Below the pieces are notes generated by a model that saw only the letters and a program-made list of their open reading frames with translations, had not been told where the DNA came from and did not search any database. Of a stretch of 63,169 nt of DNA, positions 4,045 through 58,669 are shown piece by piece. The stretch spans positions 1-63,169 of the forward strand of contig NZ_BJNF01000006.1 of assembly GCF_006539545.1 (NCBI RefSeq), given 5' to 3'. Made by a program: the position numbers and the translations under genes. The DNA is from Nitrobacter winogradskyi (GTDB taxonomy: Bacteria; Pseudomonadota; Alphaproteobacteria; Rhizobiales; Xanthobacteraceae). Position 1 is the first letter of the stretch. Each line of letters begins with the position of its first letter.

Positions 4045-6897
4045 TCACATCAGAGCCCGGCTGATGGCATCGTCGAGCCGCGACAAGCCTGATTTCAGAT
4101 TTCCCTTAAGGTGAACGCGAAGCGCTCGTCGTCCCCGCCGCGTGAGCACATCGAAATCGCCGCGCGCCTGCGCCGCCTTGATGATGCTGAAACTCATTTT
4201 CCGGCCGGGGATCTTCAAATCGCGTGGATCGTCGGCAGTGATCTGAAGGAAAACGCCGCTGTCCGGGCCGCCCTTGTAGGCTTGCCCGGTCGAATGCAGG
4301 AAGCGCGGGCCGAACTCGGCGCAGGTGGCGACTTTCTTCCGATTGCGAACGGCGAGGCGCATCCGCTGCAGTTCGCCGATGTGATCGTCATTGCGCGCGA
4401 CATAGGCCAGGAAGGCGACATAATCGCCGGCCTCGGCGCGCGAAAGATGCGCCTTGAGCCACGAGGACAGCTCGCCGTCGGCGCCCTTCTCGCGTAACGC
4501 GCGCGCATTGTCGGCGTCGGTGTAGAGATCGAAGCCGTCGGCGGATATCGCCGGCTCTTCATCCGGAAGCCTGCCTGTCTTTTCGAAGGCCGACGTCAAC
4601 TCGCGAGTCCTGACCTTGGCCGCTTCGACATCAGGCTGATCGAACGGATTGATGCCGAGAACCGCGCCGGCGACCGCGGCCGCGATCTCGAACCGGAAGA
4701 ACTCCTGACCGATCTGGTCGATCGAGTTCATCACGATGCGAACCACGGGATGTCCGGCGTTTTCGAGCGCGCGCAACTTTTCATCATGGGCGGCATCCTC
4801 TTCGTCCGCCGTGCGGATATCGATGAAGAAGCGGTCATCGCCGTAGAGGTTCGCATCGCCGAGCGGTTCGCCGTCGATCGGAATCAGGCCCTTGCCCTCC
4901 TTGCCGGTCGATTCAGCGATCAGCTGCTCGGCCCATGCGCCGAAATCAGCGATCTTCGGAGACGCCAGGATGGTGATCTTGTCGCGGCCTTCGCGTCCGG
5001 CAAGACCCATCGCCAGCCCGAGCTGGACGCCGGGGTTGTCATGCGGCGGGATCTCTGCGCCACAGGATCGCACCATGACGAGTGCGCTCTCAAGCAATCC
5101 CGTCACATCGATTCCGGCCGTCGCCGCCGGGACCAGGCCGAAGGGAGACAGGATCGAGTAGCGGCCGCCGATCTCGGGATCGCCGTGGAAGGTGCGCGCA
5201 TAGCCGAGCCTTGCCGCCTCCGCGTCAAGCGAGGAGCCCGGATCGGTGATCGCGATGAAGCGATGGCCAGCCTTGTCAGCGCCGATCGCCTTGGCCACCC
5301 GCGCGTGAAAATAGTCCTTCAGCGCGTTAGGCTCTGTCGTCCCGCCGGATTTGCTGGACACGATGAAGACGGTCCTCGCGATGTCGATCGCGGTTTCAAG
5401 CGAACGAATCTCGGCCGGATCGGTCGAGTCCAGCACATGGAGCTTCGGGAAACCCGCCGCCTTCGGAAAAGTCTTCGCCAGCACCTCCGGACCGAGGCTT
5501 GATCCTCCCATCCCGAGCACGACGGCGTCGGTGAACTTCTGCTTCTTCACGCGCCGCGCATAGTCCTCGTAGTCGGCCGCCCGATCAAACTCGGCGGCGG
5601 GACTCGTCAGCCAGCCCAGCCACTTGTCCTCGTCCGTGTTGGTCCACACGGACTTATCCTTTTGCCATAGCTTGCGGACGGCGCCGGCGGCTCGCCAGTC
5701 ATCCGCCTTCGCTTCGACGGATTTCGCGGTCGATGAATCGAGCGACAGGGTCTGCTGGTTCGCGGCAGAACCAAGGATCTTTTCCCGCTTCCGGGCGACG
5801 GCGCCGAGCAGTTTGTCGGCCGCGTCCTCGAACAGCCTCACGCCCTCTGTCACGAGGTCGCGGGTGATCGCGTCGAGTGAAATTCCGGCGTCCGCGAGCG
5901 CTGCGAGCACTTGCCGCGCGTCATCGAGGTTTTCCTCCAGGCTGTCCCGCAGCTCGCCGTGATCGCGAAAACCGTCAAGGGTCGCCGGCGGCACGGTATT
6001 GACCGTATCCGGACCGATCAACTCCTCAATGTAGAGAACGTCACGGTAGTCCTTGTTCTTGGTACCGGTCGAAGCCCATAGCAGCCGCTGCGGTCTGGCG
6101 CCTTCGGCCTCGAGCTTTTGCCAGTCTTCGCCTGCGAACAACTGCTTGTACTCCTGATAGGCGAGCCTGGCATTGGCGATCGCGACCTTGCCCTTGAGCG
6201 CGGCAAGACGCGCTTTCTCCGCGGGATCGTTGGCCTGCGCGATCTTTTCGTCGAGTTGCTTGTCGGCGGCGCTGTCGATCCGGCTGACGAAGAAGCTGGC
6301 GACGCTTGCGACATGCGCGGGATCGCCGCCATTTCGGATATAGTCCCGAAGTCCGGCCTGATACGCTTCAGCCACCTCGATGTAGACCTTTTGCGAGAAC
6401 AGCAGCGTGATGTTGATGCTGATTCCTTCCGAAATCAGTTGCCGGATCGCGGGCAGGCCGTTCGGCGTCGCGGGTACCTTGATCATCAGGTTTTTGCGAT
6501 TGACCGACTTCCACAGCCTCCTGGCCTCGGCGATTGTCCCCTCGGTATCGTTCGCAAGGTAAGGCGAGACCTCAAGGCTGACGAAACCGTCCGCGCCGTC
6601 GAGCCGGTCGTAGGCCGGCCGCAACACGTCGGCGGCGTGCTGGATGTCCTCTATCGCAAGTTGCTCGTAAATATCGGCGACCGACCGGTCATCCTTCTTC
6701 ATCAGGCTGACGATAGCACTGTCATATTCGTCCGAACTCCCGATCGCCTTCTCGAAAATCGAGGGATTGGAGGTGACCCCGCGCAATCCATCTGTGTCGA
6801 CAAGCTGTTTCAAATCGCCGTTGATGATGAAACCGCGTGCAAGGAAATCGAGCCAGATGGCCTGGCCGTGGTTCTGGAGTTCTCTGACTGGATTCAT
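4045..6897 (-). CDS. tal-pgi: Bifunctional transaldolase / glucose-6-phosphate isomerase
   Basis: One 950-residue polypeptide joins transaldolase (sedoheptulose-7-P plus glyceraldehyde-3-P exchange) to phosphoglucose isomerase. The N-terminal third carries transaldolase motifs GVTSNPSIFEKAI and the Schiff-base lysine region MIKVPATPNGLPAI. From about residue 420 onward the isomerase half shows MGGSSLGPEV, SSKSGGTTE and LASPKIADFGAWAEQL. The ATG at 6897 starts directly with the conserved MNPVRELQNHGQAIWLD; the 33 residues upstream look non-coding. Such fusions are known in Bradyrhizobium relatives and some methylotrophs. It lies upstream of gnd-zwf-pgl-gntK on the same strand, so the window encodes a compact sugar-phosphate block. 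Confidence 0.95.
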   Translation of the reverse strand: MNPVRELQNHGQAIWLDFLARGFIINGDLKQLVDTDGLRGVTSNPSIFEKAIGSSDEYDSAIVSLMKKDDRSVADIYEQLAIEDIQHAADVLRPAYDRLDGADGFVSLEVSPYLANDTEGTIAEARRLWKSVNRKNLMIKVPATPNGLPAIRQLISEGISINITLLFSQKVYIEVAEAYQAGLRDYIRNGGDPAHVASVASFFVSRIDSAADKQLDEKIAQANDPAEKARLAALKGKVAIANARLAYQEYKQLFAGEDWQKLEAEGARPQRLLWASTGTKNKDYRDVLYIEELIGPDTVNTVPPATLDGFRDHGELRDSLEENLDDARQVLAALADAGISLDAITRDLVTEGVRLFEDAADKLLGAVARKREKILGSAANQQTLSLDSSTAKSVEAKADDWRAAGAVRKLWQKDKSVWTNTDEDKWLGWLTSPAAEFDRAADYEDYARRVKKQKFTDAVVLGMGGSSLGPEVLAKTFPKAAGFPKLHVLDSTDPAEIRSLETAIDIARTVFIVSSKSGGTTEPNALKDYFHARVAKAIGADKAGHRFIAITDPGSSLDAEAARLGYARTFHGDPEIGGRYSILSPFGLVPAATAGIDVTGLLESALVMVRSCGAEIPPHDNPGVQLGLAMGLAGREGRDKITILASPKIADFGAWAEQLIAESTGKEGKGLIPIDGEPLGDANLYGDDRFFIDIRTADEEDAAHDEKLRALENAGHPVVRIVMNSIDQIGQEFFRFEIAAAVAGAVLGINPFDQPDVEAAKVRTRELTSAFEKTGRLPDEEPAISADGFDLYTDADNARALREKGADGELSSWLKAHLSRAEAGDYVAFLAYVARNDDHIGELQRMRLAVRNRKKVATCAEFGPRFLHSTGQAYKGGPDSGVFLQITADDPRDLKIPGRKMSFSIIKAAQARGDFDVLTRRGRRALRVHLKGNLKSGLSRLDDAISRALM

Positions 6898-6937
6898 GAC
6901 GTTATTCTCGGTTCGAGGACGCGCCGTTTGGAGAAAT

Positions 6938-6968
6938 TCCATACCTGTCGCAAGCCGCGCTGTGTCAA
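6938..6968 (-). promoter_or_regulatory. Possible sigma70-type promoter of tal-pgi
   Basis: On the minus strand a perfect TTGACA (6963-6968) is followed 19 bp later by TATGGA (6938-6943), about 40 bp upstream of the chosen ATG. The spacing is longer than ideal and the -10 is weak, so this is a candidate only. Confidence 0.28.
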
Positions 6969-7184
6969 CATGACGAGGAAAAGATGGCCTGATCAAGAGC
7001 AGGCCCCGTTGCTAACGTTTGAAGTGGAATATTGATCCGCTAAAGGAATGACCGGCAGATTGAAGCAGGACGGACGCAATTTTGCGACAAATAAAGCCTA
7101 TTGCAGGGCGGGCCTGTCGTTCGATAAAGAACTTGTGAGAGCGGCTGGCTGGAAAGTCCGAACTAGGCCGTTATGGGTTCGTTC

Positions 7185-7967: not shown

Positions 7968-8227
7968 ACGACCAGACCGCGAAGGACCATTTGCCCGACC
8001 GCTTGTCCACCGATCCGCGCAGCGCATATTATAATGCCGAACTTCTGTCGCGCGATATCGGCATCCGTTTCAAGGGTGTCGAGAAGAGTAACGTCGAGGA
8101 GTATTGCGTCAGCGAAGGCTGGATACGTGTTGCCGTCGGCAATGCCAGGGATCGCCATGGCAATCCGCTGACGATCAAGCTCCGCGGCACGGTTGAACCC
8201 TATTTCCGGACCGACAATCAAGCCTAG
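7964..8227 (+). CDS. DUF3297 family protein
   Basis: An 87-residue protein (NDQTAKDHLPDRLSTDPRS at the start, then RDIGIRFKG, NVEEYCVSEGWIRVAVG and NPLTIKLRGTVEPYF) that matches what I recall of DUF3297, a family without an assigned role. No ATG is available in a sensible place; the TTG at 7964 overlaps the glutathione peroxidase stop as TTGA and is the likely start, making this a translationally coupled pair. A copy of intergenic repeat family A begins immediately after the stop. Confidence 0.85.
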   Translation: MNDQTAKDHLPDRLSTDPRSAYYNAELLSRDIGIRFKGVEKSNVEEYCVSEGWIRVAVGNARDRHGNPLTIKLRGTVEPYFRTDNQA

Positions 8228-8320
8228 AGCGTTTTCCGGCAAAGTGGATGACCTGTTTGCGTGAAGAAACGCGTCAGACAAAACCATTAAGCCTCGCTTC
8301 TGACGAGCAGAAGCGGAAAG
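8228..8320 (+). repeat. Dispersed intergenic repeat, family A, copy 1 (diverged)
   Basis: Begins AGAGCGTTTTCCGGCAAAG and contains AGAAACGCGTCAGACAAAA, then ends in an inverted repeat around CGCTTCTG/CAGAAGCG. This is a diverged form of the module seen at 21535, 43091, 53773, 58991 (inverted) and 63151. It lies between the convergent ends of the DUF3297 gene and the cytochrome c fusion gene. Confidence 0.7.
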
Positions 8321-8321
8321 C

Positions 8322-9605
8322 CTAGCGGGTTATCCGGGTGAACTCGACAAGCTCTGTTCCATTCTTCGGAAGCCGTCTGTAGTCGAGGTCAGGCCAACCG
8401 GCGCATTGAACGTGGACACTCGCAACGGCGTCGAGGAAGCGCGTGCGAGTCAGTGGACGGCCGACGGTGACCAGGGCTGCCTCCAGCACAGCGACCAGAG
8501 GTGAGGCATAGGCGACGGGATCGGACCAGTCTCCGGCAGGCTTTGCCGCGATCACGTCGGTACCCTGACGTAACAGGTCTTCGATGAGATCCGGATCCTC
8601 CGACATCGTATCGAGAGGAGCGATGACCGTCCGCCCTTTGAGGTTTTGCTGGTTCATCCTGACGAACGAGCGTGCCTGCGCGGCGCCGACTGCCAGCACG
8701 ATACGTTTTGAATGGGGTGGCATCGCGTCCTGGGGCGTGATCGCGCCGGGCGGGCGCGTGCTTTCGCCTCGAGACGGAGCATCGATCACCACCGTCGTTG
8801 TCGGGCTGGCCAGACGGAGCAGGGCGTCCATGACCTGATCCCGGCTCGCGCGAACGGAGACGATAGTTCGGGGGAGCTTGATTGGGAGATGGCCTCGTGG
8901 TCCAAGGATCGGAAGCCCGGACCGTTGCAGCTTGTCGAGAACGTGCCCGCCGTCATCGAGCTGGGGACCGATCGCAAGAAAGAACGCCGCCGTACGCGCA
9001 GGGTCGCCCGACGCAAGCGACTCGACGGGAGCCACGGTGAACAGAACGCGGCGGCCATGGATCGTGGATATCCCACGCGCAGCCCATTGTCGCTCAAGTT
9101 CGTCGCGCAGGCGCGCGGCATCCGCGGGATTTCCGGTCATGGCCGGGACGACGATCCGGATTTGATCCGCCGAGACGCCACCGCGATCCTCTTCAGCGAT
9201 GTGAGCAAGATATTCCCATAGCGAGTCGGATTGAGACGGGGACAGATCGAAACGCGGCATCGCCAACGACAACGTTCGTCCATCGCTTGCGTGGCCTTGC
9301 GACACGGCCGCCCGAAAGGTTCCGGCATCGTAAGCCGGACGTCCCGGCGTCGGCGAGGCGAGCGTCGCGCCGTCGATCGGCGGCACACGCGAACGGCCTT
9401 CTCCGCCGCCGGCGGCGTTGTATCCGTGGCATCCGGCGCAACTCAGGCCGGGCCGTTCCACGCCAGCGATCCGGGCGGTTGGTGCGTCCGCGAGATAGCC
9501 GTGATAGAGCGCCCGGCCGGCATCGTCGGCCCATGTGGCCGGGGCGCACAACGACAGGACGATCGCGAGCGCGAGGCGGCTATCGAAGGGTCGAAAGAAC
9601 CGCAA
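8322..9605 (-). CDS. Exported cytochrome c fused to a periplasmic-binding-protein-like domain
   Basis: From the TTG at 9605, which has a good GAGG ribosome site 6 nt upstream, the protein has a clean signal peptide (MRFFRPFDSRLALAIVLSL, cut after TWA). A GTG at 9656 would add 17 residues and overlap the SCO1 gene by 77 nt. A single c-type heme motif CAGCH lies near mature residue 30, with a likely axial Met in LAMPRFDLSP about 70 residues later. The remaining roughly 270 residues (starting near IRIVVPAMTGNP, with many alternating strands and helices) resemble the periplasmic ligand-binding fold of ABC receptors, but no transporter genes are nearby. It is the last gene of the giant multicopper oxidase operon, so electron transfer or ligand sensing linked to that oxidase is inferred. 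Heme attachment is secure; the C-terminal fold is tentative. Confidence 0.75.
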   Translation of the reverse strand: MRFFRPFDSRLALAIVLSLCAPATWADDAGRALYHGYLADAPTARIAGVERPGLSCAGCHGYNAAGGGEGRSRVPPIDGATLASPTPGRPAYDAGTFRAAVSQGHASDGRTLSLAMPRFDLSPSQSDSLWEYLAHIAEEDRGGVSADQIRIVVPAMTGNPADAARLRDELERQWAARGISTIHGRRVLFTVAPVESLASGDPARTAAFFLAIGPQLDDGGHVLDKLQRSGLPILGPRGHLPIKLPRTIVSVRASRDQVMDALLRLASPTTTVVIDAPSRGESTRPPGAITPQDAMPPHSKRIVLAVGAAQARSFVRMNQQNLKGRTVIAPLDTMSEDPDLIEDLLRQGTDVIAAKPAGDWSDPVAYASPLVAVLEAALVTVGRPLTRTRFLDAVASVHVQCAGWPDLDYRRLPKNGTELVEFTRITR

Positions 9606-10185
9606 TGAGATCCTCAGGCTCCGGCAGACCGGCGACCGTTCTGATATCGCGTCCACCCGTTCCGATCAGCAGGAATTGAATGTCATGATCCTGGTTCGGC
9701 CCCGGCTGCACTCTCAGCCCCTCGAGCACCGACCAGACATTGGCCGGATCGCCCGACAGGAAGATGCGGTCGCGATGCATCTGGTCGGCGCGCTCGCGGC
9801 GAAGGTGTTCGGGCGAATCGGTGAGGGGATCAAGGGTGAGCGTGACGAGTTTCAAATGCTGAAGGCCATCTTTTCCCAGACGTTGCGCGATAACATCCAT
9901 GATGACATCGCTTGGAGGGCATAGTTGGACGCAGCCGGTGAATGTGAACGACAGCAGGATCGGCTGCTTCGCGATAAGCCCGCTTACGAAATTCACCTCC
10001 GCGCCTTGCGCGGTGACGAGAGGCCGATCGACGAGATGGACGGTGCGCGATTGTGTTTCGACGGTGAGGTCCTTGGCAAGCGCTGGCCACAGCGTGGGCG
10101 CAGGTGCAGGAAGGTTGGCAAGAACACTGACGGCGAGGCACGCTGTCGCTATGACGACCGCCCGGAGCAGACGTTGCCGCTTCAT
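9580..10185 (-). CDS. SCO1/SenC family copper chaperone
   Basis: A 201-residue membrane-anchored or exported thioredoxin-fold protein. An N-terminal hydrophobic segment (residues 8-24) is followed by the SCO copper site: Cys85 and Cys89 in TFTGCVQLCPP (CxxxC) and His167 in NQDHDIQF, the usual third ligand. SCO proteins deliver copper to, or reduce, the copper sites of oxidases. There is no cytochrome oxidase nearby; instead it overlaps by 4 nt (ATGA) the beta-propeller gene behind a giant multicopper oxidase, so loading of that oxidase is its likely job. It overlaps the start of the downstream cytochrome gene. Confidence 0.9.
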   Translation of the reverse strand: MKRQRLLRAVVIATACLAVSVLANLPAPAPTLWPALAKDLTVETQSRTVHLVDRPLVTAQGAEVNFVSGLIAKQPILLSFTFTGCVQLCPPSDVIMDVIAQRLGKDGLQHLKLVTLTLDPLTDSPEHLRRERADQMHRDRIFLSGDPANVWSVLEGLRVQPGPNQDHDIQFLLIGTGGRDIRTVAGLPEPEDLIAVLSTLR

Positions 10186-12020
10186 GGCTTCACATCCACG
10201 ACAGCGGGAGCGATGCGTCCGCCTGCGGCTTCGACCGACACCGCGTAGCGGCCCTCGCGTGGAAAGGTGAAGGGAAGCGCCATGGCGGAGTCGCGGCCCG
10301 GCTTCGCCGCCACACGAGCGGACCAGCCGAACGCCAGATCGTCGATGCGGATGACCAGCCCTCCCGGTAGCGCGCGTGGCCAGTTGTCGAGCGCGAGCGC
10401 CAATGTGCCCGGAACATTCGCCGATGGCGGCTTACCCACCACGCGCAATGCGGCGGGCGGAGGCTCGTCGGCTCCAGGACCATCGACGGAGAACCCTGCG
10501 CACGTCGTCGTGCCGCCCGCTCCCGTGGTGCTGACGACTTCATAGGCGCCGCCTTTCGCCAGGCGAAGGTTCGCCTCGAAACGGCCGGTTGATGTTTCGA
10601 CCATACGCTGGTCGAAGCGCGCGATCATGCGCGGCTGGTCGCCCCGGATCGCCACGGCCGCCATCGGCGCGTCACTCAGGCCGCCGCCGGATGCGATCGC
10701 GTATGCGACGTTGGATCCGGGCCGCACCGTCAACATGCTGGCCGTCGCGGGCGATACCGCGACGCGGCTCCGGCTTTGCTCGCGGTTCGCGCCGGCGACC
10801 AGGGGAAGCCGCACACGGCGCTCGGCGAAAGCCGCCTCCGGCGAGGGCGTGGACGCCAGATCGATGACGATCACCGTCGGCGATGTGCGATGCGTGAGAA
10901 AAATGGCGGAGCCGGCCGCCGCGGCCTCATCGACCAGATCGTCTGTTCGAACGACGCCGGCAATACGGGCGCGTGCCACGTCGACGATGACGGCCTTGGG
11001 TTCTCGCGCCGACCAGGCGACGAGATAGCGGCCGTCATCGCGAACGAACAGGCCGTCGATGGCGATGCCGACCGGCACGGGGACGGCTCGGTCGAGATCA
11101 TCCAGCCAGCGCAGCAACACCTCCTGTCGCGGTCCGGTGGAGGCGATCACACCGCCGCCGGCCGCCACCGGACCATTGAGGCTTCCCGCCGCGAGACGGC
11201 GCGGCGCCGTGTCACCGGCTGCGATCACGATCGCGGACCCGTCCTTTGCCGCGGCGGCAACGGTGTCGTTGTTCGGACGGACGAGCGCAGAGATCCCCGA
11301 TGCGATGGAAATGGTAGCGAGTTGAGCACCGCTGGCGTCGAATTTGATCAGCCTTCCTCCGCCGTCATGATCAGCCACGACGATGTGGTTGCCGAGCGGC
11401 GCGATCATCGTGGGCTGCGTCAGACCTTGCGCGAAGCGGCTGGCGTGGCCCCAGGGAAGATCGACGGCGAGTATATTTCCCGTGGTCTGTTGAGCGATGA
11501 ACGCACGAGGCAGAATCGGATGAACGATGAAGTCATCGGCATGGCCACCCAGTGGGGTGACGCTGATCTGGTCTGCGCTCTTCAGCCGATGATCGAGATC
11601 GACGACGCGCAAGGTATCGTGGTTGCCGGACAAGTCGGCGCTGCCGATCGAGATGAGATACGATCGTTCCAGCGGAATGTCGTCCGCGGAGATCGCGCCC
11701 GTAGCGCGCGCGATCCAGGCGGCGTTGGCGCAACTCGGGCGATCCGGCGCCACGCGCCGCACCCACGCGGCAGGCTTGAGGTTCGCGGCTGGCGTCTTTT
11801 GCAGCGCATCCGTAAAGCTCAGGACGATGCGAAAGTCCTCGTTCGCGCCGATCCGCTCGACCTTCCGTCCTTCATGATCGATGAGGCTTGCCGTGACGGC
11901 AACGCCGCTTGCGCCGCTCGCGAAGACGCCTTGCGCCATCGCTTCCGGAGTTGCGGCGAGGGTAACCATCGCCAGAATGCAGGGAAACCCGCTTCTCAGT
12001 CGAACCGTGGCAAGTTGCAC
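10182..12020 (-). CDS. Exported beta-propeller-like protein of the multicopper oxidase operon
   Basis: A 612-residue protein with a signal peptide (residues 1-30, ending EAMAQ). From about residue 150 to 460 it shows repeated segments of the form FIVHPILPRAFIAQQTTGN, VDLPWGHASRF, APLGNHIVVADHDGGG and LVRPNNDTVAAAAKDGS, the spacing expected of a YVTN/WD-like propeller. The C-terminal 150 residues look like an all-beta immunoglobulin-type domain. The start is GTG with a strong GGAGGAG site, inside the last 25 nt of the oxidase gene. No enzyme motif was recognised; a scaffold or substrate-docking role beside the oxidase is inference. Confidence 0.72.
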   Translation of the reverse strand: MQLATVRLRSGFPCILAMVTLAATPEAMAQGVFASGASGVAVTASLIDHEGRKVERIGANEDFRIVLSFTDALQKTPAANLKPAAWVRRVAPDRPSCANAAWIARATGAISADDIPLERSYLISIGSADLSGNHDTLRVVDLDHRLKSADQISVTPLGGHADDFIVHPILPRAFIAQQTTGNILAVDLPWGHASRFAQGLTQPTMIAPLGNHIVVADHDGGGRLIKFDASGAQLATISIASGISALVRPNNDTVAAAAKDGSAIVIAAGDTAPRRLAAGSLNGPVAAGGGVIASTGPRQEVLLRWLDDLDRAVPVPVGIAIDGLFVRDDGRYLVAWSAREPKAVIVDVARARIAGVVRTDDLVDEAAAAGSAIFLTHRTSPTVIVIDLASTPSPEAAFAERRVRLPLVAGANREQSRSRVAVSPATASMLTVRPGSNVAYAIASGGGLSDAPMAAVAIRGDQPRMIARFDQRMVETSTGRFEANLRLAKGGAYEVVSTTGAGGTTTCAGFSVDGPGADEPPPAALRVVGKPPSANVPGTLALALDNWPRALPGGLVIRIDDLAFGWSARVAAKPGRDSAMALPFTFPREGRYAVSVEAAGGRIAPAVVDVKP

Positions 12021-15000
12021 GGGGTCGCTCCTCCGGCTCCGCTATTGCTGACGTGCAGATGCCCCCACACGCCGGCCGCGAAGATCGACTGCGGGCCGTC
12101 GCGCCACAGGTAGTCACCGGCGGTGCGCGGCGCGCAGCTCCATGCCGTCATCGCCTTGCCCGGCGCAAGCAGTGTCGAATGTCCTGAGCCGAAGCCGGGG
12201 AACAGATCGTCATAGCCGGCGATCATCGACAGGAACGCCCGCTGCCGCGCACGCCCGTCGGGATGAACGACGCGGATCGCGATTTCGTCGGCGGGTCTCG
12301 CATCCAGCCGGGGCGTTGAAACGGGAGCGGCGAAGAAGTTCGCGGGGAAACGCACGGCGTTGAGGTCGTCTTCGTCCCGGGGATAGGTACGCAGCCCAAA
12401 ATCGGCGCGGACGCCGTTGCGACCGGCGACTCGAAAATTGAAAGGAGCCGAGCGGTAGCTGACGCCTTTTTCTCCAAGGTCATAGGAATCGTCACAGACG
12501 CGGCAGTCGGGCACGGGGCGGCCGCTCAGGCCGAGATAGCCGCTGGATGCGCGCCGCCAGTGATTGAGGCCATCCTGCCACAACAGGACATGCTCACGGA
12601 ATGACCCGGCGGGAATCGAAGCCTGCTGGCCTTGCAGCGTGAGCGCGGGCGTCTCGACGGCGACGGTTGCGGCGTGACGGTAGGTGAAGTCGCGCGCCGG
12701 CGACTCGCCGGTCGGGACGCCGTTGTCGCCGATCGCCGTGGGTTCGACGATGAGCGTGCCGGTGAGTCCTTTCGCTCCATGTGAGATCACGTCGCCGACG
12801 GACCGGATCGGCAGCGCCCCGAAGGCATAGGGGATCGCCCGCATCGCCGCTTTCCGGATGTCTTCGCGCGCGAAGTAGAGGTCGGCGCCGTCCTGCGCGA
12901 TCCGGCGAACCTGATCCTGCTTGTCTTGCGGGACCGGCACCGAATCGTCGTTCTCATTGCGCGCGTCGATGCACAGATTGACGCCGTAGATCACGACCTG
13001 CTGATCGGCGCCGCAAGGCGTCTCGGTGAGCAACTGGAACGTGAGACGGGACGGAATATGCGCTCCGATCCGGTCCTTGATCGCGTTCCAGAACGCACCC
13101 TCTCGCGCCAGATCCCTGATAGTGGCGTCTTTTGACCAGAGGAAGCCGGCATAGTGACGGGTGACGCGGAAAACCGGCGATCCGGCTCCGTCCGGCGCGA
13201 TCGCCGCGATATTGTTTACGCCAACCGGCAGCGTTCCGTCCGGTTTCAGCATCGGACTCGGCAACGGCAACGCCAGGGCAATGTTGCGGGACGGGGTGAC
13301 CTGAGGGCGAAACTGCGATGGCTGCCCGGTCCACTCGGCAAAGCTCTTTGAGCCGCCATACTGGCGTTCATCGCCATCGATGTTGAGCGGCACGATCTTC
13401 GGCATCGGCGCGTCGCCATGCGTGTCCCAAGGCTCACCTTGTCCCGGCAAGGCATTGATCACCATCAGATCAAGGCAATCTCCCGCCCTGACGCGCAGGA
13501 CGAAGGGAGATCCGATGGCGTCCCCGGCCTTCTTCAGCCTGGCGGCGGCGATGGACTGGATTTGCGCGATGGATTTCGGCAGGGCGCTGTCGTTTCCATA
13601 GTCGATGAGCGGTTTGGAGAGACCGAGGTCGCGTGCCTCAAGCGGCACAAGCAGCAGGCCGTCGCGATCGAACATGCCCGCTTTATCGACGATAGTCCCA
13701 GGGAAGCCGACGGCGGACTTGTCCAGCACCTTTCCGGCGCGCACCGCGACGGCGATCGCTTCCACCCTCGGCGCTCCGGCAGGACACCAGCTTGTCAGGC
13801 GCGATGCCGTCGGCGAAAGCGCCTCGACCGCGTTCTGCTGGCCCGGCTCCGCTGCGGCGGAAGAAGCCCCGCCGACGCGCTGGCGCAATGCCGCAAAGCT
13901 TTCGATGCGGTTGCCGATCGGTGGCTGTCCCTGGCCCGCCACGCAGGCGGCGAACGCATCTGACGACGGCGCCTTGCCGAGGCAGGCGCTCAGATCCGGC
14001 GCGGCGCTGCTGTCATAGCTCCGCACCAGGCCCCAGGCCCCGTTCCAGAGCGCGTCGGTTGATCCGAAATGATAGAGATGGTCGAGCGCGGGACGGCCCG
14101 GCGTCCGCGCGCTGAGAGGCGCCGTAGCGCCGGCGGGCTCCCGCGTTCGCAACGGGGCGAAGACGGCGGTTCCGGATGCGAACAGCGAGCCGACCTCGAA
14201 ATGCTCGGAAATACCGATTTCCTGTGCGGCTACGAAGCCGAGCGGATTGTCGCAACCCGCCACCAGCCGGTCGAGGCTGGTCCACGCCGGATCGCCGAGG
14301 CCGATCGTCGCCCATCCGGGAAAATCGCGAGGCCGGCCCGCGCGAGCGATGTCGCTCGAAGCGCAGCGCGCCGCCCGCGATATGAGGCTTCCGTTCGCGT
14401 CGGCGCCAAGGGGACGCTCGCTCGGGAACGGCTGATCGACGTTGCGCCGCGCCGGGCGGCCTTCGACGACGAACGTATGCTGGACTTCCTGAGCGCCCTG
14501 AATCAGGCGAGCCACGATGCGGTCGCCGGCGAGACCCTCAAGGACGGGCGTACAGGGATCGCCGTGAATGCGTGACTGGAAGAACTGTGAGAGGTCGCCC
14601 TTGTCGCTCAGTGGGCGTTGGCGGACGATACTCTCGCCGGACTCGCTTGCTGCGAAGGACTGCTCCTGTGGTCCCGGGAGCCGGCACGGATTGCCGAGGA
14701 ACGATGGCGGTGTGCCGTTCGAGGTGGCGCCGACGCGCAATGGAACAGGCTCGTTGCGATAATTGACGAGGTAGGGATCGTGATGCCTTTGCGAGATTGT
14801 CTCGGGGCGCGGCGGTGGCGCGACGGGCTTTCCGTAGGCTGTCCGCATGTCTTTCTGGCGTGTTTTCAGTTTCTCCACGTCGCCGGTTGTCGGTGTCAGT
14901 CCACGCTCACGCAGGAAACTGGCCGGCGCTGTTTCTTCCGCCTCGTCGTCGGCGCTCGGCGGCGGGTTGCCGGTCGTTGCCTCGAAGATCAGCCGATCGA

Positions 15001-18000
15001 TGCCGTTGGATTCGCCTGCCGTCGCCGGGGTTCCAGTCGTTTTCCTGCCGTCGTAAAGCAGCGCGAAATCCGCGATCGCGATCGCGTATTCTCGCGAGTC
15101 GATGTGGACGGGATCGCCGGATACGCCGTCCGGCGTCGCGTCGGGGCGCGGCAGGAACACGTTGGCGCGGACGCCGACGAGATCGCGTGGCGCTGCCTGC
15201 GAGAGCTTGTAAGGGAATTCGGGAAGCGCCGTCGCCGCCGGGCCGGTCTGGCAGCTTTTGCCCTCGTGGGTGGTGGAATTGGCTTCGGCCAGGGGGCATA
15301 TCGCATGCGTCGCGGGCTCGATCAGCAGCGCCGAGTAGAATCCGTGCTGCTGAATGTTGGATGGCGCGAAATGATCGTGTGTGAATACCGTCCGCATCGT
15401 GCGGTCGGTGACGCCGGCCACCCCGTTCTCGCCGTTGTCCGACAGGATCGGGTCGGCGAACCAGCGTTGGATGGTGGTCTGGAAATACTTGATGTTGTTT
15501 CCTTCAAGCCGCGGAAGGGTCGCGACCTTGTCGATGAAGTCTGGGGCGCATTCCTGCTCGGTGCGGGCGGCGACCGTCTCGCTGACCGACTCATGCGGAC
15601 GCGGCATCACCGAGCCGCCCGCCGCGGCGCGCGATTTGCAGATTCGCTCCAGCACCTCGTCCGGCGCGAGCGTGCCGTCCTCGTAGTTGAAGCCGTTGCC
15701 GCTGCCGTCCGAGGAAGTCACGTCGAACTTCACCAGATGAATGTGCTGGCCGATGGTGTCGGTCGGCACCGCCGTCTGAAAATCGTCGAGCTTGAGCTTC
15801 TTCGGCGTCTCGTTGGTATGGTGAAACTCGATGCACTCGCCGGAGAAGGCACGGAAGAAGAATGGCTCCGCATCGGACCGCCATCTGCCCTTGTAGTCAT
15901 CGGCGACCGCCGACAGCACATTGATCCGCGCTTGCGGATCGTGCCAGCCGGCGCGGTTGACGATCAGTTTGAGCTCGACCGCCGACACGTCGAATCGCCG
16001 GAAGCCGATCAGCGCCGGATCAGGAGTCATGATGCTCGGCGCGCCGAAGGCGTCGGCCTGGAAACGGAAAGGTTCGCTTGCCTGCCGCCAGGCGCTACGG
16101 AAGGCATCGAATCTGCGCAGCTGTGGTCCGCCTTCGCGGGAGAACAGGAGCGGCGCGGAGCAGGGATCCGCGAACGGCGCGCCCGGCGCGCCCGGCGATC
16201 CGTTCACCGCGAAGCGGGCGTCGTCGACGAGGCTCGCGGCTCCGCCGGACGGACCGGCCCGGACGCTGTCGAGCGCGATGGCTTTGACCGGGTAACCTCC
16301 GCTGTCGGGATCAAGGCGGGTATCGATCGGTGGTGGAGCCGGGACCGCCGGATCGCCCGTCAGGGTCACCGTGCGTTGCGCGGGCTCGCGGCCGGTCGCG
16401 TCGAACACGCGAATGCCGCTGCCGGTGCCATGGAACGCCATGGCGTTCCGCTCCAGAACCGTTCCCTGCTGCGGCAACAGTTCCAGATCGAGATGCTCAT
16501 ATTCCGACGTCATGTCGCCGAGCGCCAACATCCGCGCCAGCACACCCTTCTTGGCGATGACCTCGGCGCGCTGCGCGGGAGCGAGATCCTTCAGCACGGT
16601 CGGAATCGCGGCGCCGCCGGTGACGACGTGACGCGGCAGGCCGCCGTCGAGATGAGAACGTCCGTCGAGTGCCGCGATCTGGGCATCGCCGATGCCGGCT
16701 GGTTCGTGCTTCTCCGCGCGCGCCATGTCGAGCGGCGGTTGCGGCGAGCGATGACCGGGTTTTCCCGCCACATAGAAGGGGTAGCCGGGCATCGTGTCAG
16801 TGTTGAGTGGTTGAGTTGCATCGAGCGCTGCAGCGGCCGCGTCGGAATAGGTGGGCAGCGGCGGCAGACCCTGACCGGGCAGCGGAAGCAGGCCCGGAAT
16901 CGGCGTGCCGAGGCTCGACGGCTTGCCGCCGGCTACCGTGGCCGGATCGAGCCACTCGCCGGCGCGGCCGACGCTGCCCGGCCGCACCTTGCCCGTCTCT
17001 GGATCAGGAAGCACCGACAGTCGCGCCTCCCGCTGTCCGTCGGGAAGAACCCGCGTTCCATCTTCCAGGACATCGTGAACCCGCCAAAGCGACCACATGC
17101 CTTGCGCGAAATGCGGATAGAGATGGCAATGGAAGATGGCGTCGCCCGGCGTGCGGTTACGGTTGCCGGAGCCGAGCGAATCCCACCATCCCTTAGGAGC
17201 CGCGGCACCCGGACGATCGCTAGCGAACCGTTCCAGGCCGCCATGATAGATGCGGTAGCTGAAGCCCTGTTGCGGACCGATGGTCTGGCTGTCGAGATAG
17301 GCGCCACGACCGGCGTCGTTACCGGCGAACCATTGATGACTGTGCAGGTGGAAGACGTGGGTTTCCTTGCCGGCATGAAAATTCCGGAAAACAACTTTAT
17401 CGTTCAGATAGGAGTGATGGACATTGGAGGGGTCGTCCGGGAAAACTTCGAGCAGGGCGGGATCCCCGTTGGCCCAACTCTCCAGGAAAAACTCCTCATA
17501 CATGCATTCGGGACAGTTGGCGGCCGGGCCGATGCCGAGCCGATTGGACAGCAGGGTCGAGCCGAGGCCGCTGGCGCCGTAGTTGATGCCGAATCCGTCG
17601 CGTACGCCGGAAAGCTGCCCGAAGGCGCCGAGCTGCTTCAATTCGTCGGCGTAGAAGGTCTTCAGCTCGTCGTGGAAAATAACAGTGAACTCGCGGAACG
17701 GAGTCTGCGCTTCATGCGCCTGACGCCATTTGCGTCGATCGCTCTCCGACGTCGTCGGCTCGATCGCCGCCAGTTCGGTTGCCGGCGGCACGACGATGGC
17801 ATTGAGGTCGCCATGTATGATCTCTTCGACGACCGATCCGTTTCGGGCGTCGCACGGCCGCCGGATCGCAAGAACCGGGGCAGCATTGCCGTTCGCGCAG
17901 GAAAACGCCGCATTGTTGAGCGGCGCGGCGACACGGCCGGGCGCTTCGGAGTCCGGCACCGTTAAATTGAAATCGACCGCCTCGCTTCGGGCATGGCGGA

Positions 18001-18973
18001 CGGCGTCCTGCCGGCTCGGCCATGCCCGTTCAAATGCGGTGCGGCTCACCTGACTGCGGAAGGCGCGGCTCCCAGCCGGCTCGACGATCAACGCGCCGAA
18101 CAGGCCATGCCCGAGCGAACCGGCATCGCCTTCGCCTCCCGCCGGCGCGGCAAGGCTGGAGAACAGATGCGTGCCCTCGCGCAGCAACTGCCAGCGGCAA
18201 GTGACGGTCTGGCCCGGCTGGATCGCGTCCAGTCCGGTGCAGGCGCCGTGAATCTTCGATGTTTTTCCATCGCGGACCGGGATCGGCTCGACGCCGGGAA
18301 TGACGAACGAAAGTCCGCGCGTCAGAGGCCAGTCCGTACCGGGTTGGGCAGCCTCATGCGCCTCCTGCTTTTCGTGTGCGGGATCCTTGCGGCACTGCTC
18401 CTCGCCGAACGCCGTCCTGACGTCCCGCCGAACCGGCGCGAGGGCTGAGCCGTCTTCCGACCGCCGCTCCTCGCAAAAGCCGGTACCGGTGTTTTTTTCT
18501 TCAGAAAAGCTTCCGCTGACGCCGGGCTGATCTTTCCTAAGCAGGTTGGTGAAGGTGATCTCGAGAATATCGCCGGCATTGGCGCGCAGCACCAAAGGCC
18601 GCGGCCGCTTGCAGTCCCGCAGGCGAACCTCGCCCGGTTCGAGCTTGCCGTTTCCTGCCTCGGCGCCGGTCTGTTCGGCGCAGCGGTCCGCCGTCGGACG
18701 CTCCGCGTCGCTGGCCGAGGTTACGTCGCGGCGCAACGCATAGATCATTCCGAAGGGATTGAAAGAGCCAAAGCGATTGTAAACGAGCAGATGATCGAGC
18801 GCGACGACGTCGGCGTGGACGATGCGAGGCGTGTCCGCGCTGAGGGCGTGACCTGCTCCCGGCGTCAGCAGCGCGGTGCAGGCGAGAAGGGGTAATGCAA
18901 ATTTTCTTCGTCTTCGTTCATGGCTGGATGTCGAACCGGTAACCGCCTCGGCAATCTGATTCCAGGCAAACAT
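11996..18973 (-). CDS. Giant exported multicopper oxidase (2325 residues)
   Basis: One open frame of 2325 codons with a Tat/Sec-like signal (RRRRKFALPLLACTALL, cleavage near AGHALSA) and a good AGAGGG ribosome site. Copper ligands are visible: His542-Leu-His544 (HVFHLHSHQW) and His615-Cys616-His617, His621 and Met626 (FHCHLYPHFAQGM), the standard type 1/type 3 signature, then His1077-x-His1079 (GQHIHLVKF) and His1199-x-His1201 (FTHDHFAPS) with a later QQHGFYSALLIEP. These four HxH pairs could form one trinuclear site, in permuted order relative to laccases. Further cupredoxin-like blocks run to the C-terminus, including AGVWGHLHV (His2305, His2307). Bacterial MCOs this long are mainly known, from memory, as Mn(II) oxidases of Pseudomonas (MnxG, McoA). 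The substrate is not provable here. It heads an operon with propeller, SCO1 and cytochrome genes. Confidence 0.9.
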   Translation of the reverse strand: MFAWNQIAEAVTGSTSSHERRRRKFALPLLACTALLTPGAGHALSADTPRIVHADVVALDHLLVYNRFGSFNPFGMIYALRRDVTSASDAERPTADRCAEQTGAEAGNGKLEPGEVRLRDCKRPRPLVLRANAGDILEITFTNLLRKDQPGVSGSFSEEKNTGTGFCEERRSEDGSALAPVRRDVRTAFGEEQCRKDPAHEKQEAHEAAQPGTDWPLTRGLSFVIPGVEPIPVRDGKTSKIHGACTGLDAIQPGQTVTCRWQLLREGTHLFSSLAAPAGGEGDAGSLGHGLFGALIVEPAGSRAFRSQVSRTAFERAWPSRQDAVRHARSEAVDFNLTVPDSEAPGRVAAPLNNAAFSCANGNAAPVLAIRRPCDARNGSVVEEIIHGDLNAIVVPPATELAAIEPTTSESDRRKWRQAHEAQTPFREFTVIFHDELKTFYADELKQLGAFGQLSGVRDGFGINYGASGLGSTLLSNRLGIGPAANCPECMYEEFFLESWANGDPALLEVFPDDPSNVHHSYLNDKVVFRNFHAGKETHVFHLHSHQWFAGNDAGRGAYLDSQTIGPQQGFSYRIYHGGLERFASDRPGAAAPKGWWDSLGSGNRNRTPGDAIFHCHLYPHFAQGMWSLWRVHDVLEDGTRVLPDGQREARLSVLPDPETGKVRPGSVGRAGEWLDPATVAGGKPSSLGTPIPGLLPLPGQGLPPLPTYSDAAAAALDATQPLNTDTMPGYPFYVAGKPGHRSPQPPLDMARAEKHEPAGIGDAQIAALDGRSHLDGGLPRHVVTGGAAIPTVLKDLAPAQRAEVIAKKGVLARMLALGDMTSEYEHLDLELLPQQGTVLERNAMAFHGTGSGIRVFDATGREPAQRTVTLTGDPAVPAPPPIDTRLDPDSGGYPVKAIALDSVRAGPSGGAASLVDDARFAVNGSPGAPGAPFADPCSAPLLFSREGGPQLRRFDAFRSAWRQASEPFRFQADAFGAPSIMTPDPALIGFRRFDVSAVELKLIVNRAGWHDPQARINVLSAVADDYKGRWRSDAEPFFFRAFSGECIEFHHTNETPKKLKLDDFQTAVPTDTIGQHIHLVKFDVTSSDGSGNGFNYEDGTLAPDEVLERICKSRAAAGGSVMPRPHESVSETVAARTEQECAPDFIDKVATLPRLEGNNIKYFQTTIQRWFADPILSDNGENGVAGVTDRTMRTVFTHDHFAPSNIQQHGFYSALLIEPATHAICPLAEANSTTHEGKSCQTGPAATALPEFPYKLSQAAPRDLVGVRANVFLPRPDATPDGVSGDPVHIDSREYAIAIADFALLYDGRKTTGTPATAGESNGIDRLIFEATTGNPPPSADDEAEETAPASFLRERGLTPTTGDVEKLKTRQKDMRTAYGKPVAPPPRPETISQRHHDPYLVNYRNEPVPLRVGATSNGTPPSFLGNPCRLPGPQEQSFAASESGESIVRQRPLSDKGDLSQFFQSRIHGDPCTPVLEGLAGDRIVARLIQGAQEVQHTFVVEGRPARRNVDQPFPSERPLGADANGSLISRAARCASSDIARAGRPRDFPGWATIGLGDPAWTSLDRLVAGCDNPLGFVAAQEIGISEHFEVGSLFASGTAVFAPLRTREPAGATAPLSARTPGRPALDHLYHFGSTDALWNGAWGLVRSYDSSAAPDLSACLGKAPSSDAFAACVAGQGQPPIGNRIESFAALRQRVGGASSAAAEPGQQNAVEALSPTASRLTSWCPAGAPRVEAIAVAVRAGKVLDKSAVGFPGTIVDKAGMFDRDGLLLVPLEARDLGLSKPLIDYGNDSALPKSIAQIQSIAAARLKKAGDAIGSPFVLRVRAGDCLDLMVINALPGQGEPWDTHGDAPMPKIVPLNIDGDERQYGGSKSFAEWTGQPSQFRPQVTPSRNIALALPLPSPMLKPDGTLPVGVNNIAAIAPDGAGSPVFRVTRHYAGFLWSKDATIRDLAREGAFWNAIKDRIGAHIPSRLTFQLLTETPCGADQQVVIYGVNLCIDARNENDDSVPVPQDKQDQVRRIAQDGADLYFAREDIRKAAMRAIPYAFGALPIRSVGDVISHGAKGLTGTLIVEPTAIGDNGVPTGESPARDFTYRHAATVAVETPALTLQGQQASIPAGSFREHVLLWQDGLNHWRRASSGYLGLSGRPVPDCRVCDDSYDLGEKGVSYRSAPFNFRVAGRNGVRADFGLRTYPRDEDDLNAVRFPANFFAAPVSTPRLDARPADEIAIRVVHPDGRARQRAFLSMIAGYDDLFPGFGSGHSTLLAPGKAMTAWSCAPRTAGDYLWRDGPQSIFAAGVWGHLHVSNSGAGGATPCNLPRFD

Positions 18974-19022
18974 GCAACCCTCTCTGATGAGGCAGGCGTG
19001 GCCGTCCGATCCAACAATCCGG

Positions 19023-19051
19023 ACGATAATTTAAGCGCGTGAATGTGACAA
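19023..19051 (-). promoter_or_regulatory. Candidate promoter of the multicopper oxidase operon
   Basis: Minus strand TTGTCA (19046-19051), 17-bp spacer, TATCGT (19023-19028), placing a start near 19016, about 43 nt upstream of the oxidase ATG. Five of six and four of six bases match the sigma70 consensus. No obvious operator was seen in the 210-bp divergent region. Confidence 0.4.
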
Positions 19052-19183
19052 GACGCCGCCTCGCCTGTAATCAGTCAGCCTGAAGGATTTTAGGTTCGAT
19101 ACATTCTTTTAGAGATAACATTTAGATGCTTGACGATCGCGTCCGTCAGTCGACAGGAGCGATATGTGGGAAGGTTTTGTCCT

Positions 19184-20992
19184 ATGTCAGGGATTGTTGA
19201 GGGGCGCTATGCGGGAGCCTTCCAGCCCGGCGGCCTGACGGTCGAAGCCCGCATCGGGCGAAGCCATGACGGCAGGCTGGAAAACCTCAGTGGCGATGTG
19301 TTCGCCGGCCTCCGGCATGTTCTCTCGTTCATTGGCCGTGCCGGTGCATTGTCCGAAAGCACCGATGGCGGCCTGAGCGGAATGGTTTCATTCTTCTCAG
19401 CTCAAACACTTCATCATAACGGAAGCCCGATCACGGTGTCGCCGAACCGGCAAGCTGCTGATGGAAGCACGTCGATATCGCTGACGCTGGACCCGGGCGA
19501 GGGCGAAATCACCGTCGAGCTTGAATGGGCCGGACCTGAGCTGCGCAGCTTGCGGATCGATATCGACGGGCTGTCGGGACTTCCCGAGCCCGATACTTCA
19601 CTCCTCGACGGGGATCAGGATGGTCAGGATCTCGTCGCCGTGCTGAAACGGGCGTCGATCTCCTCGACCGTTCATCCGTCTCCTTTCCGGCCCGACGCAT
19701 CGGGGCGGAAACGTCACACGATGGCGGAGCTGCATGCCCTGATGCAGGACTGGAGTCCGCCGCCGCAGCAAGATAACCGGCAGTGGCGGCTGCATGTGCT
19801 GTTTGCAAATCGTTTCGACGGTCGCAACGGCGATGATGTGACAGGCATCATGTATGATGTCGAGCCGGGCATGAGACCCTCGCGACAGGGCCTCGCCGTT
19901 TTCCTCAACAGCAACACGATCAAAGGCTGCGAGCCCGCGAACGGCCCCGATTGGCGGCGCGAAGTCTCTTTCACGCTGGTTCATGAGATCGGTCACGCCC
20001 TGAATCTTCCTCATGCCTTCGAGGATGGCCGGCCGGAGGCGTTGACCTGGATGAACTATCCCGACCGGACGGCGAATGGCGTCGCCGGGTTCTGGTCGCA
20101 GTTTCAGGGAGCGTTTGATTCCACCGAACTGGCTTTCCTGCGCCACGCCCCGTTCTGTGACATCGCGCCGGGCCAGTATGACTATGCGCAACGCGACAGC
20201 GGCCTGCTTTCGGGTGGAGGGTTTTCGGCGTTTCGCGCGGCCTGTCATCATGAGGCTGCCCCGCAGCCGGCGAAGGCCGTGCTGGCAATCGCACCGCTCA
20301 AGCCGGTCTATGCGTTCGGTGAGCCGATCTTCCTGAAAGCATCCGTCACCAACAATGGCCGCAGGCCGCTCGATGTGGCCAAGGCGCTCGACCCGAGCGA
20401 CGGGTTTCTCTCCATTCAAATTCGCTCGCCGCATGGAAAGGTCCGGCGGATAAGACCGCCTGCGATGCTGTGCCAGCGTACACCGGGTATCACGCTGCGA
20501 CACAGGCAGTCGGTCAGTTTCGACGGCATTCTCGCCTCGTTCGATGCCGAAGGGCCGATCTTCGACGCACCCGGCCGCTACCAGATCGACGCGACCTTCA
20601 CCGGCGTCGCAGGCGTTACGCTTGCCTCAAAGCCGGCCTTTCTGCGCGTTCTCCATCCCAGCCGCGCCGAGGAAATCTTCGCCATTTCCATATGGGATGA
20701 TCCGCAACTGATGCGTGCGATCTATTGCCGGCAACCTTTGCTGGCGCTGGACAGCTGGCAATGCCTTGTCGAGGAAACCGCCCGGGCGCTCTCCGTCGAT
20801 CAGGGCAATACGAGCCTGTCCTATCTGAAGTACATATCGGCAATGGGTTGGCTCTCGTCCTTCGCGCCGGCATCCCGAACCAAAAAATACCTGCCCCGGA
20901 AGCGCAAGGCCGCGTCGCATCTTTCAGTGATCGAGACGCGCGGCCTTCCGAGCGGGGTGCGGTTGCGGCGCGATGAACTCTTGCTTCGCTGA
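19184..20992 (+). CDS. Metzincin-type zinc metalloprotease
   Basis: A 602-residue protein with the extended zinc motif HEIGHALNLPH at residues 267-277 (three His ligands and catalytic Glu) and a following Met-turn, LTWMNYP, with Met290; this arrangement is that of metzincin endopeptidases. The N-terminal 180 residues and the C-terminal beta-rich region (PLKPVYAFGEPIFLKASV, an Ig-like start) were not assigned to families. The ATG at 19184 has GGAAGG upstream; the open frame extends 18 residues further but without a ribosome site. No signal peptide is visible. It is divergent from the giant oxidase operon, sharing a 210-bp intergenic region, so a functional link is possible but unproven. Confidence 0.78.
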   Translation: MSGIVEGRYAGAFQPGGLTVEARIGRSHDGRLENLSGDVFAGLRHVLSFIGRAGALSESTDGGLSGMVSFFSAQTLHHNGSPITVSPNRQAADGSTSISLTLDPGEGEITVELEWAGPELRSLRIDIDGLSGLPEPDTSLLDGDQDGQDLVAVLKRASISSTVHPSPFRPDASGRKRHTMAELHALMQDWSPPPQQDNRQWRLHVLFANRFDGRNGDDVTGIMYDVEPGMRPSRQGLAVFLNSNTIKGCEPANGPDWRREVSFTLVHEIGHALNLPHAFEDGRPEALTWMNYPDRTANGVAGFWSQFQGAFDSTELAFLRHAPFCDIAPGQYDYAQRDSGLLSGGGFSAFRAACHHEAAPQPAKAVLAIAPLKPVYAFGEPIFLKASVTNNGRRPLDVAKALDPSDGFLSIQIRSPHGKVRRIRPPAMLCQRTPGITLRHRQSVSFDGILASFDAEGPIFDAPGRYQIDATFTGVAGVTLASKPAFLRVLHPSRAEEIFAISIWDDPQLMRAIYCRQPLLALDSWQCLVEETARALSVDQGNTSLSYLKYISAMGWLSSFAPASRTKKYLPRKRKAASHLSVIETRGLPSGVRLRRDELLLR

Positions 20993-21166
20993 AGTTGCGT
21001 ATTGTCCGTCAGCCCCCGAGACAGGTTGAGGGGGTCACTCTCGTTCCCTGAAACTCCGATGAACGGAAACCCTGGTAAGCTGGCAACCGATTTTCCTTGC
21101 ATTCCGCGGACACAGGTTGCGAGCGGTCGGCGCCTTCCCTCCGATCATTCCCGAAAGCCGAAAATC

Positions 21167-21534: not shown

Positions 21535-21662
21535 TAGCGTTTTCGAGCGAAGCATGTCCTCGGGCCTGAGCCCTAAGGATGGAATCCGGTTCGCGTCAAG
21601 AAAACGCGTCAAAACATAAAGCTGGAGTCTTTCACCGTTTCCATGAACCGTGAAAGACTCTA
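21535..21662 (+). repeat. Dispersed intergenic repeat, family A, copy 2
   Basis: Starts TAGCGTTTTCGAGCGAAGCA, then a CCTCGGGCCTGAGC segment, CCGGTTCGCGTCAAGAAAAC and GCGTCAAAAC, and ends in a hairpin with an 11-bp stem GAGTCTTTCAC/GTGAAAGACTC. It sits between the DUF486 pseudogene and the convergent metallophosphoesterase gene, and its hairpin could act as a terminator. Confidence 0.85.
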
Positions 21663-26366: not shown

Positions 26367-26491
26367 CTGGCTGGTCCTGACACGACCGACGTTCCGCTCG
26401 CAGCGGTCGGGGCCGTCGAAGTCGATAAACAACTTGCGAAATTCGTCGGTCAAAAGCCCCGCGCGGCGCGGCGGCCGTTACCGGATCGACG

Positions 26492-29153: not shown

Positions 29154-29162
29154 GCTGCGGTC

Positions 29163-43214: not shown

Positions 43215-43306
43215 GCTTCAGGGGGCATCTCGATCCTGATCCACCTGAGTTGAATCAGGATGAAGCAGGATCCTGTCCCAAAGCGGCGCGTCGCCGGTGA
43301 ACGCTC

Positions 43307-57493: not shown

Positions 57494-58669
<1,176 letters not shown>

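Follow-up and report, generated by a model that had tools for sequence, protein, structure and literature searches.

A probable five-gene mnxG-type cassette with a head-to-head protease gene in Nitrobacter winogradskyi

Why bacteria oxidize manganese and how giant oxidases are built are open questions. In the Alphaproteobacteria, Pedomicrobium MoxA is a multicopper oxidase. The mnxG operon of Pseudomonas putida GB-1 is listed in Table 4 of PMC11409713 in the order mnxG, YVTN beta-propeller, SCO1/SenC, SCO1/SenC, ABC substrate-binding protein with a cytochrome c domain, and SurA. MnxG relatives of great length were already known from the Alphaproteobacteria, since the 2013 tree of six-domain copper proteins presented in PMC3600357 held a 2493-aa oxidase from Methylobacterium populi. 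Here we describe a stretch of 63,169 nucleotides from Nitrobacter winogradskyi (contig NZ_BJNF01000006.1 of assembly GCF_006539545.1, called the window at its full length), which encodes four overlapping minus-strand genes headed by an MnxG-like oxidase and, head to head with them, a gene for a predicted protease on the plus strand. We consider it likely that these five genes constitute a single cassette that is acquired or lost as a whole and has probably passed from species to species, and that it serves an extracytoplasmic MnxG-type oxidase whose substrate is most likely Mn(II). What is new here is a five-gene form of the known mnxG system that comes and goes as a block, not a new enzyme class. 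Other loci and genomes are designated by L and G numbers, respectively. The features of the block are as follows.

8322-9605, minus strand: c-type cytochrome fusion (Pfam cytochrome c and CAGCH; leader-like start, and a C-terminal region)
9580-10185, minus strand: SCO1/SenC-type copper chaperone, 201 aa (Pfam SCO1-SenC; CVQLC and DH)
10182-12020, minus strand: propeller-like protein, 612 aa (family profile and position; leader-like start)
11996-18973, minus strand: MnxG-like multicopper oxidase, 2325 aa (NF041487, PDB 9bxa, copper ligands)
18974-19183, no strand: head-to-head intergenic region, 210 bp (weak sigma-70-like site inside)
19184-20992, plus strand: metzincin-like protease, leaderless, 602 aa (HEIGHALNLPH and Met-turn WM)
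8214-21095, no strand: whole five-gene block (absent at the matching site in relatives)

The minus-strand run of four overlapping open reading frames (ORFs) at 8322-18973 is real, and chance is excluded because the proteins are conserved in other genomes. By ORF coordinates the oxidase and propeller genes overlap by 25 nt and the propeller and SCO genes by 4 nt, while the overlap between the SCO and cytochrome genes is 26 nt if the latter starts at the TTG at 9605 and 77 nt if it starts at the GTG at 9656, which yields the longest cytochrome ORF (8322-9656, 444 aa). All four proteins have a hydrophobic N-terminal stretch that is predicted, by hydrophobicity only, to be leader-like. An earlier note on this DNA had described this run, with its oxidase of 2325 residues, export signals or an anchor in every protein, and overlaps of 4-26 nt, and each of these points is borne out, the export features as leader-like starts and the overlaps with the starts then chosen (25, 4 and 26 nt). 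The four genes of the proposed unit are real, but the head-to-head protease was left out; and the stretch 8322-19051 extends beyond the coding unit, which ends at 18973, position 19051 being the first base of a weak sigma-70-like promoter site (19051-19023, minus strand, 9/12 matches; the region contains 4 such sites against 1.6 expected). A common promoter for both directions was discarded: the sigma-54 pattern used had no match, and comparison of seven head-to-head regions brought out no clearly conserved block. A plus-strand ORF at 14618-17965 lies inside the oxidase gene on the opposite strand and was taken as its shadow.

Comparison of the oxidase with NCBIfam returned a single family, MnxG (NF041487, E-value 2.4e-156, 522 bits). 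Searching the PDB likewise gave one strong match, Bacillus MnxG (9bxa, E-value 4.9e-61), the second-best being a laccase-like oxidase (E-value 0.0052); in Pfam there was a Cu-oxidase match below the cut-off only. Alignment of 28 oxidases revealed that copper ligands H539, H542, H544, H615, C616, H617, H621, H1077, H1079, H1199 and H1201 are identical in all 28 and that the axial Met, M626, is kept in 27, which accounts for 12 expected ligands; His1499 is likewise invariant. These residues form four copper motifs for one type 1 and one trinuclear site, the assignment of ligands to the two sites being what we presume from general knowledge of multicopper oxidases. By its sequence the protein is thus a multicopper oxidase of the broad MnxG type, closest to MnxG both in the profile library and among PDB sequences, a placement in keeping with the link that the earlier note had drawn between very long bacterial multicopper oxidases and Mn(II) oxidation. 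As in 9bxa, the HCH motif precedes HIH and HDH in the chain, and strong local matches to that structure occur in three stretches; the 9bxa chain, however, has 1227 residues, against 2325 in the window. Bacillus also has MnxE and MnxF subunits, as described in PMC5622069, whereas the window has a propeller, SCO and cytochrome instead.

In a 27-row oxidase tree (quick method, SH-aLRT support only; L078 was dropped, and L005 was left out for an oxidase gene split over two overlapping frames), the window oxidase groups with L002, to which it is 74% identical over the first 1690 residues, and then with Methylobacterium and Aurantimonadaceae rows (support 99-100). Fourteen oxidases form one clade with support of 100, hereafter the window's clade, which comprises subclade A, holding the window, and subclade B, holding Rhodobacterales and Shinella. 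The deep branching order is unsure because the Priestia row has a very long branch. A division into long and short forms by oxidase length was dropped: L072 (2482 aa) and L073 (2436 aa) lie outside the clade and are equally long, so length is no divider and comparisons were made by clade. These two loci come from G820 and G809, members of one genus, perhaps Nitrosomonas, with the highest NF041487 scores met; they served as the stand-ins nearest the Pseudomonas-type model. Both carry two SCO genes, and the MnxG model search that covered them found matches in 22/61 genomes, strong in seven only (G527, G806, G809, G820, G821, G826 and G830). At L007 (1-6933) the oxidase and propeller share a single open frame, and a signal-like stretch marks the place where they join; we did not use it as evidence of contact, since the join resembles a signal peptide and the frame may be two genes or an assembly effect.

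The three genes that follow the oxidase place the window with mnxG operons. The SCO protein matches Pfam SCO1-SenC (E-value 1.7e-12) and carries CVQLC and DH. The cytochrome match in Pfam is just over the cut-off (E-value 4.9e-4), with the heme motif CAGCH, and its family hidden Markov model (HMM) matches downstream of SCO in relatives; by operon position it is the counterpart of the P. putida ABC substrate-binding protein with a cytochrome c domain. No Pfam family matched the 612-aa protein, which we call propeller-like from its family HMM, which places it beside the oxidase in relatives, its position, and the YVTN annotation of the P. putida counterpart. The SCO1/SenC protein with CxxxC and His, the cytochrome c fusion and the beta-propeller-like protein named in the earlier note are therefore all recovered, and its placing of SCO1-type genes near Pseudomonas mnxG is confirmed by Table 4 of PMC11409713. 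Judged by sequence, the window thus has the partner genes of an mnxG operon: the oxidase comes first and is followed, in the GB-1 order, by propeller, SCO and cytochrome c. Unlike the GB-1 operon as tabulated, the window block has one SCO gene rather than two and no SurA gene, with no additional operon gene between 8214 and the cytochrome, and it has a head-to-head protease that is absent from the table of six operon genes (PMC11409713). The same article cites a role in Mn oxidation for the cytochrome c maturation genes of P. putida MnB1, which fits a cytochrome partner in the unit. The mof operon of Leptothrix and Rubrivivax sp. A210, as described in PMC8218464, is similar in pairing a giant oxidase with a cytochrome c gene, in A210 also with a copper metallochaperone, but differs in containing MofB (Mip-like); here the likeness is one of description, not of MofA sequence.

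Conservation of the gene order, which the earlier note had left as a check, was then assessed with BLAST searches of the window proteins and the family HMMs. Propeller, SCO and cytochrome genes lie downstream of the oxidase and on its strand in 22 of the 25 proteobacterial loci with sequence beyond the oxidase. Because the window and about ten of the loci went into the making of each HMM, their matches are given by construction, whereas the remaining loci are independent. The exceptions are L012, where all three genes are present but divergent from the oxidase, L048, with two SCO genes and no cytochrome found, and L075, where none of the three partners was found. Among the 22, L046 has an additional gene after the oxidase, the L013 cytochrome runs off the contig, the L041 propeller is in two ORFs, and in L042 the propeller and SCO genes are split and the ORF that weakly matches the cytochrome lacks CxxCH. 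Contigs that end early kept L002, L004, L051 and L081 out of the count, and L083 was omitted as a second copy of the L005 genome. Outside the 25, Priestia L047 and Rubrobacter L078 are without the partner set, save for a weak propeller-like match in L047. The split genes in L005/L083 (oxidase), L041 and L042 suggest decay or assembly errors. At L077 (729-21098; Paracoccus sp. SMMA_5_TC), methylamine dehydrogenase genes follow the unit and a PCu(A)C copper chaperone gene lies a few genes upstream.

That the oxidase acts on Mn(II) is inferred from its family and operon, and several observations weigh against it. The window oxidase does not reach the NF041487 equivalog cut-off of 3100 bits, and we therefore term it MnxG-like, not an NF041487 equivalog. 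The Bacillus-type MnxG of a Priestia plasmid scores lower still (333 bits), so the missed cut-off reflects distance from the model's own subtype and not from MnxG overall. An AlphaFold model of the N-terminal half (1200 aa, 11 rows) had a mean predicted local distance difference test (pLDDT) score of 38.2, leaving the copper-site geometry unsupported. Moreover, the alphaproteobacterial Mn oxidase described in PMC6247904, from Aurantimonas and Erythrobacter, is the heme peroxidase MopA. MopA is an unrelated enzyme that has in common with the window an alphaproteobacterial host; a search for its family, PF03098, gave no match in this genome, and likewise none in the control, so that its absence is not established. 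The window protein could instead be an MnxG relative with another substrate, such as Fe(II), Cu(I) or a phenolic or humic compound; the operon would then be a general periplasmic oxidase with copper loading. Multicopper oxidases do vary in substrate, and the clade, whose carriers include Paracoccus and Methylobacterium, is far from Pseudomonas MnxG by bit score. Nevertheless, only a Mn oxidase was matched strongly in the PDB, and the partner genes are of the kinds found in the mnxG operon, not those that accompany ferroxidases or laccases, and we regard another substrate as unlikely. The metal-oxidation system, possibly for Mn(II), that the earlier note had suggested is thus upheld as to family and operon, with Mn(II) still to be read as the probable substrate.

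That the five genes form a unit is also indicated by genomes in which they are missing. The host genes that flank the block could be located in 7/8 genomes of the same genus. In G001, G002, G003 and G005 the site is empty: the match to the window stops at 8211-8213 and resumes at 21096-21134, with 68-197 bp between, and the missing stretch comprises the four operon genes and the protease, with no other recognized gene. The closest relative, G004 (L099), retains three remnants at the same site, one from the end of the protease, one from within the propeller and one from the end of the cytochrome; since these pieces remain, the unit has decayed or been lost by deletion there. In G006 and G008 the two flanks are on different contigs, and neither flank gene was found in G007.

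The unit might be an ordinary ancestral operon lost in sister species rather than a transferred cassette, and the three scars in G004 show that loss happens. However, the oxidase had no match in 60 further genomes drawn from its genus, family and order, and a second set, centred on G584, had 3/99. The MnxG model matches 4/385 genomes of the class, the window's included (one more of these, G191, holds a long gene in which several stretches match strongly), and 4/398 of the phylum. The unit also occurs on plasmids of Methylobacterium, Paracoccus, Shinella and Roseivivax; in Methylobacterium sp. DM1 the plasmid is typed conjugative and transposase genes lie on both sides. We therefore consider simple ancestral descent with loss quite improbable and favor a cassette that has moved.

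How the block may have been inserted was also examined. No tRNA was found in the window, no repeat pair at the edges and no integrase among the Pfam-scanned neighbors, and insertion by a mobile element was set aside. Short interspersed sequences at 8227-8323, 21580-21663, 43134-43217 and 58983-59044 match stretches near the corresponding site in relatives; they look like members of a repeat family and do not flank the insert pairwise, and for the 8227-8323 copy no second copy was found in the window.

Across 13 loci, flanking genes are common only to the near-identical L003 and L008, apart from generic TonB, ABC-transporter and GlxA-type genes. TonB receptors of the window (23967-26453) and of L004 (1257-3386), both on the protease side of the unit, are 45% identical; this is probably coincidence, because part of the region persists in relatives of the window that lack the unit.

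The product of the fifth gene carries, by its sequence, the metzincin signature, which we take to be an extended zinc motif followed by a Met-turn: HEIGHxLNLPH and the subsequent WM are invariant in 6/6 aligned metzincin-like sequences. Its Met start aligns with the first residue of relatives, and the N-terminus has low hydrophobicity and no leader-like stretch. Pfam matches were below cut-offs only, and PDB profile matches had E-values of 0.13 or weaker, with ADAMTS and archaemetzincin first. Neither PADLOC nor PHROGs matched the metzincin; a role as a defence gene was discarded on the former search, in which L044 also gave no match and L009 gave a weak NACHT-model match (7.5e-4), and a phage origin on the latter.

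Seven loci have a metzincin-like gene head to head with the oxidase (the window, L002, L003, L004, L005, L008 and L041, L004 being a Methylobacterium oryzihabitans contig). In a sister subclade the site is instead occupied by a trypsin-like protease, which six other clade loci carry (L009, L042, L043, L044, L076 and L077). The trypsin-like proteins of L009, L042, L044 and L077 are longer chains with a papain-like region, which matches Pfam above the cut-off in L009 only, and have no leader-like stretch; L043 has a separate subtilase beside the trypsin-like gene. Culturable environmental carriers with an apparently complete unit include Antarcticirhabdus aurantiaca R10 (metzincin) and Shinella sp. 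PSBB067 (trypsin-like). A protease is thus head to head in 13/15 loci of the window's clade (the 14 tree rows and L005), or 11/13 once the close pairs L003/L008 and L005/L041, 92-93% identical, are collapsed. Outside the clade we found none in 12 loci (L010, L011, L012, L045, L046, L048, L049, L050 and L072-L075), where the metzincin and trypsin-papain HMMs matched no ORF. Pfam detected no protease among eight nearby ORFs (L010, L011, L045, L049, L050, L072, L073 and L075), those of L011, L045 and L050 matching nothing; this zero is softer than the 13 because the verdict on L012, L046, L048 and L074 was reached from annotation and ORF lists alone. The counts exclude L007 and L013, whose upstream side is missing, as well as L047 and L078. 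In plasmid records covering at least 80% of the oxidase, a protease was head to head in 11/11 (five by annotation, Methylobacterium DM1 by metzincin homology, and five from hit coordinates in a pair of protein searches); the records are not independent, since 8/11 are from Paracoccus.

Elsewhere, metzincin matches are rare: one other, weak (1.8e-4), in 240 genomes of the class, while 5/6 in the plasmid set are distant (24-28% identity). On a Rhizobium leguminosarum plasmid (L079, 16-7530) a distant relative lies beside ferritin-like and LodA-like genes, a second case near redox enzymes.

Pairwise protease and oxidase distances over the seven metzincin loci correlate with r of 0.99, a value reached by 7/5040 permutations; the correlation shows, at the level of sequence, joint descent of the two proteins, not function. 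We tentatively suggest, as a reading somewhat less probable than not, that a dedicated leaderless protease is a fifth working part of this alphaproteobacterial MnxG branch, and that evolution has put unrelated proteases at its site: a metzincin, or a trypsin-like protease that frequently carries a papain-like region and in one case is accompanied by a subtilase. Against such a role, the distance correlation owes much to two close pairs within the seven loci, and an AlphaFold model of the protease (6 rows) had a mean pLDDT of 56.6, so that the fold is unsupported; a Foldseek search with this poor model returned unrelated folds and was unused. Unless one of the two moves, a protease with no leader does not share a compartment with an exported oxidase. 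In addition, L006, with a heavy-metal P-type ATPase at the site, and L081, with a Fic protein, lack the head-to-head protease and keep a full-length oxidase frame, from which it follows that the protease is not essential.

These absences would also fit a protease gene that is a passenger, the head-to-head position being a hot spot without functional link and leaderless proteases of several kinds being found in accessory DNA. The varied make-ups at the site (metzincin, trypsin-papain, trypsin alone, trypsin with subtilase) and the distant metzincin relatives away from mnxG, including that at L079, would suit a passenger. A passenger is less easily reconciled with a protease that lies inside the block missing at empty sites, has an invariant catalytic motif and tracks the oxidase, or with 13 loci that share no other flanking gene beyond the exceptions named above. 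We treat a passenger as a serious possibility, if one short of probable. A head-to-head protease at mnxG was not described in the literature searched, which consisted mostly of listings and included few subscription papers; where 'protease' occurred in mnxG literature that we looked into, it was only in a reference title and as a protease inhibitor.

For the five-gene cassette as a whole, family membership suggests how the parts may work together. Mn(II) would give electrons to the type 1 copper, from which they would pass through His-Cys-His to the trinuclear cluster, where O2 would be reduced. The SCO protein may load copper, and the cytochrome may carry or sense electrons. Less surely, the protease might act on a product of the unit, so as to mature, trim or turn over either the oxidase or a regulator; because no signal peptide is seen, it would act in the cytoplasm or leave by some other route.

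The surroundings of the block are ordinary and chromosomal. They include a transaldolase-glucose-6-phosphate isomerase fusion (4045-6996), a MoxR-DUF58-BatA/DUF4159 run (27090-33927), a cytochrome b-c1 fusion (40271-42334) and a RAMA-type DNA methylase (57494-58624).

Enzyme work in the Alphaproteobacteria described in PMC6247904 has been on MopA peroxidases. In 6/6 inspected plasmid records of the window's clade the oxidase is annotated as a hypothetical protein, and annotation-based surveys would therefore miss it. What makes the locus interesting is its protease and the testable contrast between strains with and without the unit, more than any new class of enzyme. A compact cassette that is present in some strains and absent from others makes the MnxG route testable in Alphaproteobacteria, and the protease is a candidate processing enzyme for the giant oxidase. 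If it is a working part of the unit, proteolysis would be a hitherto unrecognized step by which giant Mn oxidases are made, released or regulated.

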